A stretch of DNA of 64,000 bases, taken from Natronococcus sp. CG52. GTDB lineage: Archaea > Halobacteriota > Halobacteria > Halobacteriales > Natrialbaceae. Below the pieces are notes generated by a model. The model saw only the letters and a program-made list of their open reading frames with translations. It was not told the origin of the DNA and searched no databases. Made by a program: the position numbers and the translations under genes. The stretch is taken from positions 1,860,001 to 1,924,000 of the forward strand of contig NZ_CP099391.1 of assembly GCF_023913515.1 (NCBI RefSeq), read 5' to 3'. This document shows positions 55,472-59,920 of this stretch, in pieces (positions within the stretch are counted from its first letter, which is position 1; the number at the start of each line of letters is the position of its first letter).

Positions 55472-55651
55472 TCAGAACCGGTGGATGTCGACGTCTTCGG
55501 ATTGTTCGTCGGGCTGTGCCTGCGTGGCGCAGTCGGCACAGAGGCCCGCGTCCGGCTCGTAGTGTACCTCACACGCGAGCGTTCCACAGTTGGGACACCG
55601 CTCTTGTGCCTGCCGCGATTCGCAGATCTGGCAGAGGCCACTGATGCTCAT
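55472..55651 (-). CDS. HIT-type zinc-finger protein
   Basis: This 59-aa protein starts at ATG 55651 and has eight potential zinc ligands in HIT-type order: Cys7, Cys10, Cys19, Cys22, Cys27, His30, Cys38 and Cys41 (CQICESRQAQERCPNCGTLA). The tail is acidic. Such small fingers bind two zincs and mediate protein contacts; the partner is unknown. Longer frames upstream are basic shadows. Confidence 0.85.
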   Translation of the reverse strand: MSISGLCQICESRQAQERCPNCGTLACEVHYEPDAGLCADCATQAQPDEQSEDVDIHRF

Positions 55652-55779
55652 ACCAGTCCGTACGGGCTCGAGGGGCTTGAAAGGGGGCCCGGCAGCGCCG
55701 GGGTCTTCGTTTCGACTCCCGCAGGTCGGTGGAGGACGAAACGATGGTGCGAAGTGAATCGGTTCCCGTCGACCGAAGG

Positions 55780-56193
55780 CTACTCGGCGTCCGTCTCGAG
55801 ATCGTGACAGCACTCGAGAACCTGCTCGAGGTCGGCGGTCGGTGACGTCCACCTGACTGTGCCGCTCCGACTGTCGTACTCGACCAGTTGCCGATCGGCC
55901 AGTTTCGGCAGCTGATTGTGATAGAGGTCGATCAGCACCGGTTCCCGCTCGTCGGCCGTGATCTGCTCGACCGGCAGGTCAGCCTCGCGAGCGGCGATCG
56001 TCGTCGCCAGCGACTCGACGTCCGCGATCTCGTTTTCGGAGAGGTAGTACAGGACGTCGCGGCGCCGCTGATGACCGAGAAGCGAGAGCAGTTCGTCGAC
56101 TGACGACCGTTGATCGTCGACAGCAGGCGCGTCGAGTCGAAACTCGCCCGGCGCTGACTGGCCGTCGGACTTCTCGGAACGATAATCAACCAT
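55780..56193 (-). CDS. DUF7344 winged-helix regulator beside the CHAT module
   Basis: This 137-aa protein has VDELLSLLGHQRRRDVLYYLSENEIADVESLATTIA and PVLIDLYHNQLPKLADRQLVEYDSRSGTVRW, the same pattern as the 40190 protein: an ArsR-like winged helix with a YHNQLPKLAD recognition helix. A disordered acidic N-terminus (1-30) precedes it. It is divergent from the HalOD1/DUF7504 gene with 188 A/T-rich bp between, and may control that module. Confidence 0.86.
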   Translation of the reverse strand: MVDYRSEKSDGQSAPGEFRLDAPAVDDQRSSVDELLSLLGHQRRRDVLYYLSENEIADVESLATTIAAREADLPVEQITADEREPVLIDLYHNQLPKLADRQLVEYDSRSGTVRWTSPTADLEQVLECCHDLETDAE

Positions 56194-56218
56194 ATATCTG
56201 TTGAGTATCGACCGACGC

Positions 56219-56304
56219 TAATAAATTTGCTAGAGAAGTGTTCCGCCAGAGCGTAGGAAACAAACACAAAATCAGATGTAATACATACTATTCTTTTGAT
56301 AGTA
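56219..56304. promoter_or_regulatory. Divergent promoter region with inverted repeat
   Basis: A TATA-like TAATAAATTT (56219-56228) lies 26-35 nt upstream of the DUF7344 start at 56193. TACTAT (56286-56291) and ATAGTA (56299-56304) form an inverted repeat with a 7-nt spacer about 80 bp upstream of ATG 56382. The whole 188-bp gap is strikingly A/T-rich. Candidate site for the neighbouring regulator. Confidence 0.45.
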
Positions 56305-56381
56305 ATTCGCGTTAGTTTCACGCTTTTTTCGACTAGGATATCCGCGACCTTTTCGTGGGGCTCGCTCGTACTCCGCTGCAG

Positions 56382-57611
56382 ATGACGAACGATTGCTCTC
56401 GGACGCGAGACGGATCTCGGGGTGGTAGCGAAGGTTCTACAGCTACCGAGATCTCGACTCGTCCGAGTGTCGCAATCGTCGAGCAGATCGCGGACGAAGC
56501 CGGAATCTCGCCGCTCGGGTTGCGGCCGCTGAACGACACGATCGATGCGGACGCTCTGGACCAACTGCTCGATGACGCGGACGAGACAGCGAACGACGCG
56601 TGGCCGACCGTCGTCTTTACGTACGCGAACCACCGCGTTTGCGTGACCGCCGACGGCCAGATAACGCTCTCGAGTCCCAGCGCTACCGACATCTCGGTCG
56701 TCGACGAGTGGACTCACGTTTCGATCGTCGAGACGTCAGACGAAGCAGACGTCGCGACGCGCGCCGTGTCGGCAGTCGCCGAGCACTCCGGACGGGACCT
56801 CGCGAAGGTTCGGTCGGCGATCGGGAACGTCGTCGACATCGACGCGATAGCTCGACTCGGAGAGGAGCGCGGAAACGGGGCGTCGCGATCCGGGGCCACC
56901 GTGTTGTTTTCGGTACTCGGTTACGACGTCGTCGTCGAGTCCAACGGAACGATCGCCGTCGGATCCACGCTCAAACGGCTGAAACAGACCGGAGGGAACG
57001 TGTTGATCGCCGGCGCCGTCCCCGATGCGCTCACCGACGTCGCCAGCGCCAATCTGCTCGGCGACCCCGAGCGCGGCCGCCGGCACGTTTTCGCGTTACT
57101 CGATCGCGACGGCACCGTCGTTCCCGCCCGTCTGGGTTCGACGGACGCGACGGCCGCGCGCGTCGTCGACTACACGGCGGCGTCGCGTTCCGCGGCGAGC
57201 GCACAGCCGACCGTCGACGGCGGCCCCGCTGTCACCGACGAGCCGACCGATCTCGACGAGCTCGGGACGGCGATCGAGACGGAAATCAGGGCGCTCGTAG
57301 CGGGAACGGCCCTCTGTGAACCGGGAGAGCTCCGCCTCTGCGTCGACTCGCTGCGGCCGGTGCTGGACCAGCGCGACGCGGAGGAAGCCGTCGCGTTCCT
57401 CGAACCGATCTGCGAATCGGTTCGAGGCGTATCGGGGCTCGCACACTACGTGCTGCCGGTCGACCGGGACGAGCCGGTCGTACGGACGCTCGAGTCGCTG
57501 TTCGACGCGACGATCGAACTTCGAGTGACCGAGTCGGGTCCCGAGCAGCGGTGGCACCTTCACGAGAGCCACTACACGACCGACTGGTTCCCCCTCGCCC
57601 CCGTCCAGTGA
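56382..57611 (+). CDS. Two HalOD1 domains plus DUF7504-like domain
   Basis: This 409-aa protein has two HalOD1 output domains (about 28-97 and 125-195), each showing V..V.E..G.....L....D.ID.DAL..L and a VVF.Y....V.V...G.I.L sheet, then a DUF7504-like alpha/beta domain (about 200-409) with GGNVLIAGAVPDALTDVASANLLGD, LRLCVDSLRPVLDQRDAEEAVAFLEPI and a closing RWHL strand. These are haloarchaeal signalling families; DUF7504 resembles a RecA-like fold without a visible Walker A here. Start ATG 56382. It is followed after 61 bp by the CHAT gene, probably in one transcript. Confidence 0.8.
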   Translation: MTNDCSRTRDGSRGGSEGSTATEISTRPSVAIVEQIADEAGISPLGLRPLNDTIDADALDQLLDDADETANDAWPTVVFTYANHRVCVTADGQITLSSPSATDISVVDEWTHVSIVETSDEADVATRAVSAVAEHSGRDLAKVRSAIGNVVDIDAIARLGEERGNGASRSGATVLFSVLGYDVVVESNGTIAVGSTLKRLKQTGGNVLIAGAVPDALTDVASANLLGDPERGRRHVFALLDRDGTVVPARLGSTDATAARVVDYTAASRSAASAQPTVDGGPAVTDEPTDLDELGTAIETEIRALVAGTALCEPGELRLCVDSLRPVLDQRDAEEAVAFLEPICESVRGVSGLAHYVLPVDRDEPVVRTLESLFDATIELRVTESGPEQRWHLHESHYTTDWFPLAPVQ

Positions 57612-57672
57612 AATCCCGAACGCCCACTCGAGGACGTGTCGCTCGCGATCGAAACCCGATCGCCACTCAACG

Positions 57673-59763
57673 ATGAGCCTGAATCCGACGTTTCAACCGG
57701 TTGATGACAGACCCGGACTGACCGTCATCGACCCCGTCGAAAACAAGCAGTATCCGTTCCAGACTCCCGATTCCGTTTCGCTGTATTCGACTGACGACGA
57801 GGGGTTCTACTTCCCGGTCGACGCCGCCGTCTCGTTTACCACGACCAAGCTGGTGTTGCCCTACGTCGTTCCGATCTACGTTCGGGATCCGGCGGGTGAG
57901 ATGCTCCTCGAGGCCGAACACTACGCCTACGAGACGCTGCCCGAGGGGGAGTACATCCTCGAGTTGATGGCGCCGATCAAACTCTACGTTCGCGTTCGAA
58001 GCGAGGTGACGATCGCGTCCTCCGACGATCGCCTCTCGTTCGACTTCGGCGGACCGACGTCCGTTCGACTGGGTGCACGCTCGCGTCACAAGCGTCCCGC
58101 GGCGACGGTCGGGACGACGGCCGACCCCGCCGACCTGGCACGCGCCGTCTCCACCTTCGGCTCCGCGCTGAAGACGACCCGCTGCGATCGGTCGCTCCCC
58201 TCGTTCCGGGGCCATCCACCGCGGCTCGTGCTCGAGGACGAACTCCGGATTCCGGAGGGGCTCGAGCCGCCGGATACCGGGATCACTATCGTCGTGCCGC
58301 CGGAGCGGACGGCGATCTACGCCGTCAGTTCGCTCGCCTACTATCTCGGCGCGACGGTCGAAACGGGGTCGCGTCCCCGGATCGAAACAGATCGCGGATT
58401 CGAGTTCTCGCTCGCTCGCTCGGATGAGCCGTTCGACCGGACGGTCCAGCGGGTTCTCGAACGCGTGTTCTTCTTCGACTGCGTGACTCGGACGGAGGGA
58501 TTTTACCGGGTCGACCTCCACGAGCGCCGTCGCCTCGAGGAGCGCGTCGATCTCTCGTTCGACGAGTTGTACGAGGCGCCGCTGGCCGATCGGCTGGCCA
58601 CCGTTCTTTCGGTGCCGTTCGAGACCGTCGCGGATCTCGTCCCGCAGTGGCACCTCGTCACGCACGCGACGGCGGCGGCGGAGAACGCGGCGACGCTTCC
58701 GTTTCTCGTAAACGAACTCTCCGTCGTCCGGACCGCCCCGGACGACGGGGAACGAGACGCTCCCTCGTCGGCGCGACCACCCGCCATCGAAGAGTTCACG
58801 CGCTCGAGCACCCGATCGACGGAGGGCAATTCCGACTCCTCCTCGATCGACTCCTACGTCTCACCGCCCGACGTCGACGCCTTCGAACAGGCGTGGCTGG
58901 GCGACGGCGTTCCGGTCGGAGCGAACAAACTCTCGCGAACCGCGTTCGAGAACGGACTCGATCGATCGACGTCCAGCGACGGTGTCGAGGTTACGATCGT
59001 TTGTAACGATCCGGAGATGGCCGCCGAACTCGAGGCGGGCGACGACGGTCTCTACGGGAAGCGCGAGGAACTCCCCTTCGACGTCACCGTTCACCGAAAC
59101 GTCTCCGGCGACGAACTGCGTCGGCTGTTCGCCGAAGACGTCGACTTCCTCCACTACGTGGGCCACGTCAGGGACGGCGCCTTCGTCTGTTCCGACGGGA
59201 TGCTCGACGCCGGAGCGCTCCCGGATATCGGCGTCGAGGCGTTTCTGATCAACGGCTGTCGGTCGTACGATATCGGAACTCGACTGATCGAGGAAGGAGG
59301 TGTCGGCGGAATCGTCACGCTCAGCGAGGTCGGTAACCAGGATGCGATCGCAGTCGGCCGGTTCATCGCGAAACTTCTGAACAACGGGTTTACACTCCGG
59401 TCCGCGGTCTCCTTGGCGCGTTCTCACCGCTTCGTCGGCAACCAGTACATCGTCGTCGGCGACGGCGGCGTCGCGGTCGGACAGGCCGGAAGCGGCGTTC
59501 CGAACAGTTGTCGTCTCGAACGAATCGACGGCGACGACGCGTACCGGCTCCAACTGCAGTTGTATCACGTCGACAGCGGTGTCGGTGCGCAGTACATCCC
59601 CTACCTCGATGGCGTAGACTGTCACTTCCTCGCAGGAAACGAACTTCCGCCGATACGGGTTTCCGGCGAGTCGCTGGCGCGCTTCCTGCGGCTAGCGCAA
59701 GTACCGGTCGAGTACGACGAAGAATTTTGTTGGTCGACTGACGATCGGTTCGCTACGCTGTAA
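57673..59763 (+). CDS. CHAT-domain (caspase-like) protein
   Basis: This 696-aa protein has an N-terminal beta-rich region (1-150) of unrecognised type, a middle alpha/beta region (200-350), an acidic Ser-rich linker (355-395) and a CHAT domain (about 435-600). The domain shows VDFLHYVGHVRDGAFVCSDG with His494/His498 and AFLINGCRSYDIG with Cys529, then GGVGGIVTLSEVGNQDAIAVGRFIAKLLNNGFTLRSAVSLAR, the usual helix-strand tail of CHAT proteases. His498 and Cys529 would be the catalytic pair. A C-terminal extension (600-696) follows. CHAT proteins are proteases in some bacterial defence and death systems. The substrate is unknown. Confidence 0.83.
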   Translation: MSLNPTFQPVDDRPGLTVIDPVENKQYPFQTPDSVSLYSTDDEGFYFPVDAAVSFTTTKLVLPYVVPIYVRDPAGEMLLEAEHYAYETLPEGEYILELMAPIKLYVRVRSEVTIASSDDRLSFDFGGPTSVRLGARSRHKRPAATVGTTADPADLARAVSTFGSALKTTRCDRSLPSFRGHPPRLVLEDELRIPEGLEPPDTGITIVVPPERTAIYAVSSLAYYLGATVETGSRPRIETDRGFEFSLARSDEPFDRTVQRVLERVFFFDCVTRTEGFYRVDLHERRRLEERVDLSFDELYEAPLADRLATVLSVPFETVADLVPQWHLVTHATAAAENAATLPFLVNELSVVRTAPDDGERDAPSSARPPAIEEFTRSSTRSTEGNSDSSSIDSYVSPPDVDAFEQAWLGDGVPVGANKLSRTAFENGLDRSTSSDGVEVTIVCNDPEMAAELEAGDDGLYGKREELPFDVTVHRNVSGDELRRLFAEDVDFLHYVGHVRDGAFVCSDGMLDAGALPDIGVEAFLINGCRSYDIGTRLIEEGGVGGIVTLSEVGNQDAIAVGRFIAKLLNNGFTLRSAVSLARSHRFVGNQYIVVGDGGVAVGQAGSGVPNSCRLERIDGDDAYRLQLQLYHVDSGVGAQYIPYLDGVDCHFLAGNELPPIRVSGESLARFLRLAQVPVEYDEEFCWSTDDRFATL

Positions 59764-59785
59764 CGACGCCGTTCAGATTCGGACG

Positions 59786-59920
59786 TTACCACGTGCCGCC
59801 GCCGTTCCCGGCAGCGACGGTGCCGGCCTGCGACAGCAGGAGGCAGGCGGCGAACAGGACGCCCATCAGTCGGGGATGCTCTGCGAAGAACGCTTGTAGT
59901 CGGCCATTACTGGATGACAT
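59786..59920 (-). CDS. 44-aa membrane peptide, DUF7503-like
   Basis: The minus-strand frame from ATG 59920 encodes MSSSNGRLQAFFAEHPRLMG, then VLFAACLLLSQAGTVAAGNG and GGTW before TAA. AEHPRLMGVLF followed by LLLSQAGTVAAGN is the pattern I recall for the tiny haloarchaeal DUF7503 family: one hydrophobic segment and a Gly-rich end. A TATA box (TAATATAATT, 59947-59956) lies 27-36 nt upstream. It sits 22 bp from the end of the convergent CHAT gene and was too short for usual gene finding. Confidence 0.78.
   Translation of the reverse strand: MSSSNGRLQAFFAEHPRLMGVLFAACLLLSQAGTVAAGNGGGTW

Follow-up and report, generated by a model that had tools for sequence, protein, structure and literature searches.

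A conserved convergent pairing of CHAT-family genes with the DUF7503 micropeptide in Halobacteriales, and its possible role in signalling

The locus described here lies at positions 55780-59920 of a 64,000-nucleotide stretch of the Natronococcus sp. CG52 genome (NZ_CP099391.1), which is called the window below. It contains the gene of a 696-residue protein with a predicted CHAT peptidase fold, which runs tail-to-tail into the gene of a 44-residue micropeptide of the family DUF7503. The grouping of CHAT with DUF7503 genes is beyond chance in the Halobacteriales genomes that we sampled, and DUF7503 is very probably a functional partner of the CHAT protein. That the two constitute a signalling cassette, formed by a clan CD (caspase/separase-like) endopeptidase and its dedicated micropeptide, is a reading of the whole to which we give an even chance.

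The pairing was followed in 40 loci from ten families, which were picked by their match to DUF7503 alone and comprise better-scoring matches spread by hand over genera, not a random sample. In these loci each of the 41 DUF7503 genes converges on a CHAT gene, and the same arrangement is found for 53 of 53 DUF7503 genes when all loci collected are considered, with a median of 65 base pairs separating the domain ends. At the level of genomes, 163 of 195 Halobacteriales possess both families, ten possess CHAT only, none possesses DUF7503 only and 22 possess neither (Fisher 1e-21, kindred genomes not being independent of each other). CHAT is present in 173 of these genomes (89%). DUF7503 occurs mostly in one or two copies per genome, and the Natronococcus genome itself (4.74 Mb) harbours eight or nine CHAT paralogs and five DUF7503 genes, every one of the five tail-to-tail with a CHAT gene; the copy numbers of these and the other families are lower bounds, few candidates having been scored per genome.

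An earlier note on this DNA had proposed that four families co-occur, adding a HalOD1/DUF7504 protein and a DUF7344 regulator to CHAT and DUF7503. The note had named a lack of co-occurrence elsewhere as a refutation. The association of CHAT with DUF7503 stood this test strongly, but DUF7344, the HalOD1 fusion and DUF7504 are not general companions, and the four-gene module was rejected as a general unit because the first two are lineage-specific.

DUF7503 was not found outside Halobacteriales among the genomes searched. Beyond this order, the family f25 possesses single CHAT relatives without DUF7503 (L086-L089; genomes G202, G211, G220 and G229), one of which lacks the catalytic dyad. The well-sampled genus g55 has exactly one CHAT gene per genome, and the five loci read from it combine an intact dyad with DUF7503 and DUF7504. 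A decayed cassette was observed at G000:C3:358568-360776 (L020), with CHAT split across two frames and DUF7503 extended past its usual end to 77 residues.

The CHAT-family protein and the DUF7503 peptide

The 696-residue protein (P0003) has no match in Pfam, NCBIfam or PADLOC models, and the label 'CHAT' therefore needed a separate test. The Pfam CHAT model matches 12 of 56 homologs weakly (best E 5.7e-4), and the sole match in the scan that displayed cut-offs reached 14.9 bits against a cut-off of 24; the family is beyond the reach of this model. A sequence-based search of solved structures with the CHAT protein returned nothing meaningful. In the public annotation of plasmids the relatives are mostly termed 'hypothetical protein'; a single one is labelled 'caspase family protein' and another 'CHAT domain-containing protein'.

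The fold assignment comes from an AlphaFold model built on nine sequences (mean predicted local distance difference test score, pLDDT, 62.5, the C-terminal core being better), in which residues 436-600 match CHAT, separase and caspase structures. The best solved structures in Foldseek were SAVED-CHAT (E 5.2e-6 to 2.3e-4) and human separase (5.2e-4). VIA-align ranked Craspase TPR-CHAT highest (Z 15.0, 163 residues, 4.0 Å), followed by DdvA (14.2), SAVED-CHAT (13.6), separase (11.9, 159 aligned residues), gingipain R (11.1) and caspases (9.9-9.3); all these matches cover approximately residues 398-600, at a moderate residue-level confidence of the model. The predicted structure places His498 directly after a strand at 490-496 and Cys529 directly after a strand at 521-527. 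The corresponding motifs in 57 aligned homologs are [FL]-H-[YF]-x-G-H and N-[AG]-C-x-S, and the His/Cys dyad is kept in 56 of the 57. Predicted fold and dyad conservation bear out the CHAT identity and the His498/Cys529 pair that had been read from the sequence: judged from the model, the protein almost certainly has a CHAT fold, and it is quite probably an active protease.

The N-terminal half is also conserved and features a beta-rich part (residues 1-140) and an RS-P-RGHPP region around residues 173-183. Folded alone it gave a confident model (pLDDT 80.6), but its matches to sugar-enzyme-like beta-sandwiches are borderline, the best (Z 8.3) falling within the stated noise of the tool. Members of the family without the dyad still keep this half. 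Among 123 proteins the dyad is intact in all 63 CHATs that are paired with DUF7503, compared with 31 of 60 unpaired ones, 29 of the 60 having lost it (Fisher 9e-12).

We analysed 64 DUF7503 homologs, corresponding to 63 distinct peptides. Common to them are [HN]P[RK], an unvarying Gly three positions later, a hydrophobic core, about 11-12 residues long, then SQAG, small residues and a short tail; in 62 of the 63, HP[RK] lies 30-35 residues from the end of the peptide. The tail is variable, 7-10 residues long, and terminates in Gly-Pro in 47 of the 63. In the window the peptide reads HPRL, hydrophobic core, SQAGTVAA (with an AxA-type signal-peptidase site) and the tail GNGGGTW, which makes it one of six peptides ending in Thr-Trp. 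The family agrees with the Sec signal-peptide pattern of a positive residue, a hydrophobic core and small residues at -3/-1, and the signal-peptidase -3/-1 rule (small residues at a fixed position) holds for 53 of 53 peptides. At a CHAT identity of about 37% the leaders are 62% alike and the tails 22%. By its sequence, DUF7503 could be a variable tail behind a leader that resembles a signal peptide, or else a minimal anchor in the membrane; the shortness of the core speaks for the first, without settling the matter. The designation 'membrane peptide' given earlier is uncertain, a cleavable signal peptide accounting for the sequence no less well than an anchor.

Gene layout and neighbouring genes

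The features of the locus are listed in Table 1. The arrangement of four genes had been described correctly: its coordinates were confirmed, and Pfam identifies DUF7344, HalOD1 with DUF7504, and DUF7503. The DUF7344 gene is divergent from the HalOD1/DUF7504 gene. All of these matches score well above the respective cut-offs, among them DUF7503 (62.2 bits, Pfam cut-off 27) and HalOD1 (PF18545, 102.1 bits, cut-off 26.3), and NCBIfam marks the HalOD1 part as DdfA-like (86.5 bits, cut-off 70). RNA structure in the gap between the convergent CHAT and DUF7503 genes is no more stable than in shuffled sequences (z -0.11), and a scan for terminators and promoters found nothing beyond chance, with a sigma-70 model that is unsuited to archaea. 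Outside the module, the window encodes a small Cys-rich, zinc-finger-like protein (55472-55852, minus strand; weak B-box/zf-HIT matches below cut-off), whose open reading frame, on the same strand as DUF7344, runs into the end of that gene.

Table 1. Features of the Natronococcus locus, in window coordinates
Feature	Position	Strand	Evidence
DUF7344 winged-helix protein, 137 aa	55780..56193	-	Pfam PF24035, E 5.6e-22
HalOD1/DUF7504 protein, 409 aa	56382..57611	+	Pfam HalOD1 (two stretches, 1.8e-29), DUF7504 7.9e-48
First HalOD1 domain of the 409-aa protein	~56457-56669	+	Pfam, NCBIfam DdfA
C-terminal DUF7504 domain of the 409-aa protein	~56991-57521	+	Pfam
CHAT-family protein (P0003), 696 aa	57673..59763	+	Predicted-structure matches, dyad conservation
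Conserved N-terminal half of the CHAT protein	57673..58716	+	Homolog alignment
Predicted CHAT peptidase domain, residues 436-600	58978..59472	+	Fold matches, dyad conservation
His498 codon of the CHAT protein	59164-59166	+	Alignment
Cys529 codon of the CHAT protein	59257-59259	+	Alignment
22-bp gap separating the convergent CHAT and DUF7503 stop codons	59764..59785		
DUF7503 micropeptide, 44 aa	59786..59920	-	Pfam PF24335, E 3.3e-17

DUF7504 stands immediately upstream of CHAT on the same strand in 12 of the 40 sampled loci, and immediately upstream in all five loci read from the genus g55. The HalOD1-DUF7504 fusion together with DUF7344 was encountered, among the sampled CHAT loci, only in the window and in L009-L014 (Natronococcus and one metagenome-assembled genome of Natrialbaceae), and the Natronococcus genome holds about 50 copies of DUF7344. 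For these reasons the four-gene module is a lineage-specific elaboration of the widespread CHAT and DUF7503 pair. By eye, DUF7504 displays a RecA-type pattern with a lost Walker A, the P-loop GPPLTGK being kept only in the paralog L023; a profile search of solved structures with DUF7504 yielded no KaiC match and nothing else meaningful. Judging from these motifs, DUF7504 looks like an inactivated KaiC/RecA-type domain, and the 409-residue protein is a candidate sensor or adaptor. Two regions of the genome, G000:C1:18000-29000 (L024) and 3954000-3965000 (L025), are 99.9% identical over 10.7 kb; the two ends of contig C1 probably overlap by about 35.7 kb without having been collapsed, so that genes near them, e.g. 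one DUF7504 gene, are counted twice.

Unpaired members of the CHAT family have other neighbours. In an active unpaired clade, 18 of the 19 loci have the gene of the transcription regulator TbsP beside CHAT (L099, L100, L102, L103 and 14 more), and one inactive clade adjoins PAS/GAF histidine kinases in nine loci; because of these neighbours, the CHAT family can be said to keep company with signalling genes. TbsP is described as affecting motility and biofilm formation via glucose metabolism (PMC13286277). The TbsP-adjoining clade is often situated in a glyA/folD neighbourhood. Two inactive clades, often in tandem, comprise 16 members (L090-L098, L110, L115, L131, L139 and L142) and 12 members (L108, L109, L113, L114, L116, L143 and L145), and the inactive clades look like pseudo-protease regulators. 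A Halobacterium genome carries three tandem CHAT genes with intact dyads and no DUF7503 alongside (L101, G072:C1:411000-429000).

Proposed mechanism and its alternatives

Clan CD enzymes are regulated endopeptidases, several of which cleave after Arg or Lys. In the mechanism that we propose, the CHAT protein would be a cytoplasmic protease held off by its conserved N-terminal half. Where present, an upstream DUF7504 or HalOD1-DUF7504 protein would relay a sensory signal to it, and, once activated, the protease would cut one particular target. Its direct partner is most likely DUF7503, as a substrate or precursor that would be brought to the membrane by the HP[RK]-hydrophobic leader. The conserved Arg/Lys of DUF7503 at the membrane border is a plausible cut site, given the preference of several clan CD enzymes for these residues. 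The suggestion that the peptide is the target of the protease agrees with the finding that every DUF7503-paired CHAT examined has its dyad intact; that it is a direct substrate remains tentative, and we lean slightly against it. Instead of defence against phages, the output would probably be physiological signalling of a kind tied to stress, shape or motility.

Several observations weigh against this interpretation. The CHAT and DUF7503 genes are convergent and not co-transcribed, and their linkage is therefore no proof of a physical interaction. Parsimony places only three dyad-loss events on the tree, all of them in unpaired lineages. The hydrophobicity and the Arg/Lys of DUF7503 may be mere features of a signal peptide or of membrane topology. 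DUF7504 is missing beside most CHAT genes, and the nine-sequence model of the whole CHAT protein is only of middling quality.

Among the alternatives, DUF7503 might be the precursor of a secreted signal: signal peptidase I would cut after AxA and free a peptide of 7-10 residues ending in Gly-Pro, with CHAT as an intracellular processing or response enzyme. The small residues at -3/-1, a core that is short for a membrane span, the contrast between conserved leader and variable tail, and the frequent Gly-Pro end are all in line with it. However, the conservation of the leader exceeds the need of a mere signal peptide, the tails are poor in charge and complexity, and no transporter or surface receptor gene recurs beside the pair in the sampled loci. 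Moreover, a single haloarchaeal quorum signal has been studied chemically, and it resists proteinase K and was called a small molecule (PMC12240190). We regard this alternative as unlikely. An identity of DUF7503 with the known quorum signal DFS is disfavoured by the proteinase K resistance of DFS.

Somewhat less probable still is that DUF7503 is an uncut tether or regulator that holds CHAT at the membrane. The strong conservation of its hydrophobic core and of HP[RK] on the cytoplasmic side would suit such a role, and the CHAT protein in the window itself lacks a membrane span (max KD19 1.32); yet the core is short and is followed by polar or small residues and the AxA motif, and independent transcription from the opposite strand would be atypical for a tether.

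The poorest case is that of an anti-viral or abortive-infection module, in which CHAT would respond to infection by releasing or cutting DUF7503, acting as a small membrane toxin: bacterial CHAT and caspase-like proteases such as Craspase and SAVED-CHAT do act in immunity, and CHAT copies also reside on haloarchaeal megaplasmids (24 records) and are multiplied in some genera, but the family is near-universal on the chromosomes of the sampled order, with DUF7503 in its low copy number, has no matches in viral contigs or phages, and is flanked in the sampled loci by housekeeping or signalling genes (no survey against defence islands was made), while PADLOC found no defence-model match for any of the four window proteins. 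The absence of matches in the viral contigs, phages and PADLOC models searched led us to reject a phage-borne or defence origin, and the role in defence or cell death suggested by the earlier note was not upheld.

If the preferred reading of a protease with a dedicated micropeptide is correct, CHAT proteases would be central to everyday archaeal signalling, and their fixed peptide partner would represent a new kind of haloarchaeal micropeptide.

Comparison with known systems

CHAT proteases are known mainly from bacterial immunity and development. The haloarchaeal protein resembles Craspase TPR-CHAT/Csx29 and SAVED-CHAT in the peptidase fold, the His/Cys dyad and a large regulatory N-terminal part, and would likewise be switched by a signal. 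In contrast to these, the CHAT protein of the window has no recognised CRISPR, SAVED, cyclase or TPR part, its N-terminal half is of another kind, and it is accompanied by a 44-residue leader peptide in a core chromosomal setting instead of an immune locus. Separase, which cuts after Arg in defined substrates, has a similar peptidase fold; however, no sequence relation is detectable beyond the fold, and there is no cohesin or securin partner. With AgrD/Phr-type pheromone precursors DUF7503 shares a conserved leader and a short variable C-terminal part, but no dedicated exporter or surface receptor was found for it, and its gene is paired with that of a CHAT protease encoded on the other strand.

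Haloarchaea are known to use the HalOD1-iKaiC architecture for signal output (Galperin et al. 2018, PMC5847659), and Haloferax needs the HalOD1 protein DdfA both to form disks and for its quorum response (PMC10869688, PMC12240190). The HalOD1-DUF7504 protein of the window appears to have the same architecture, if DUF7504 corresponds to iKaiC as its motifs suggest, but differs in possessing two HalOD1 copies and a direct operon linkage to a CHAT protease. Such a linkage was not found in the literature searched, although an earlier mention elsewhere is possible.

Reports from 2010-2012 describe caspase-like activity in haloarchaea but not its gene. Extracts of Haloferax volcanii hydrolyse LEVD, VEID and IETD strongly and in a zVAD-sensitive manner, with no gene known; the activity is Asp-specific and was seen in Methanosarcina too (PMC3615174). 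In H. volcanii, DUF7503 and DUF7504 genes are present above Pfam cut-offs. The caspase-like fold of CHAT is in keeping with this activity, but the activity cuts after Asp and occurs in Methanosarcina, a methanogen group in which the CHAT family was not identified, and the proteasome is a rival source. It would be a long shot to combine these observations, such that CHAT is the missing 'archaeal caspase' behind the zVAD-sensitive activity and DUF7503 its dedicated substrate, through the processing of which a short exported peptide with a conserved Gly-Pro end would be set free or controlled; this would give archaea a protease-peptide signalling system. As a hypothesis, the CHAT family, with its presence in most sampled Halobacteriales and its caspase-type dyad, is a candidate source that could explain the caspase-like activity of haloarchaea.

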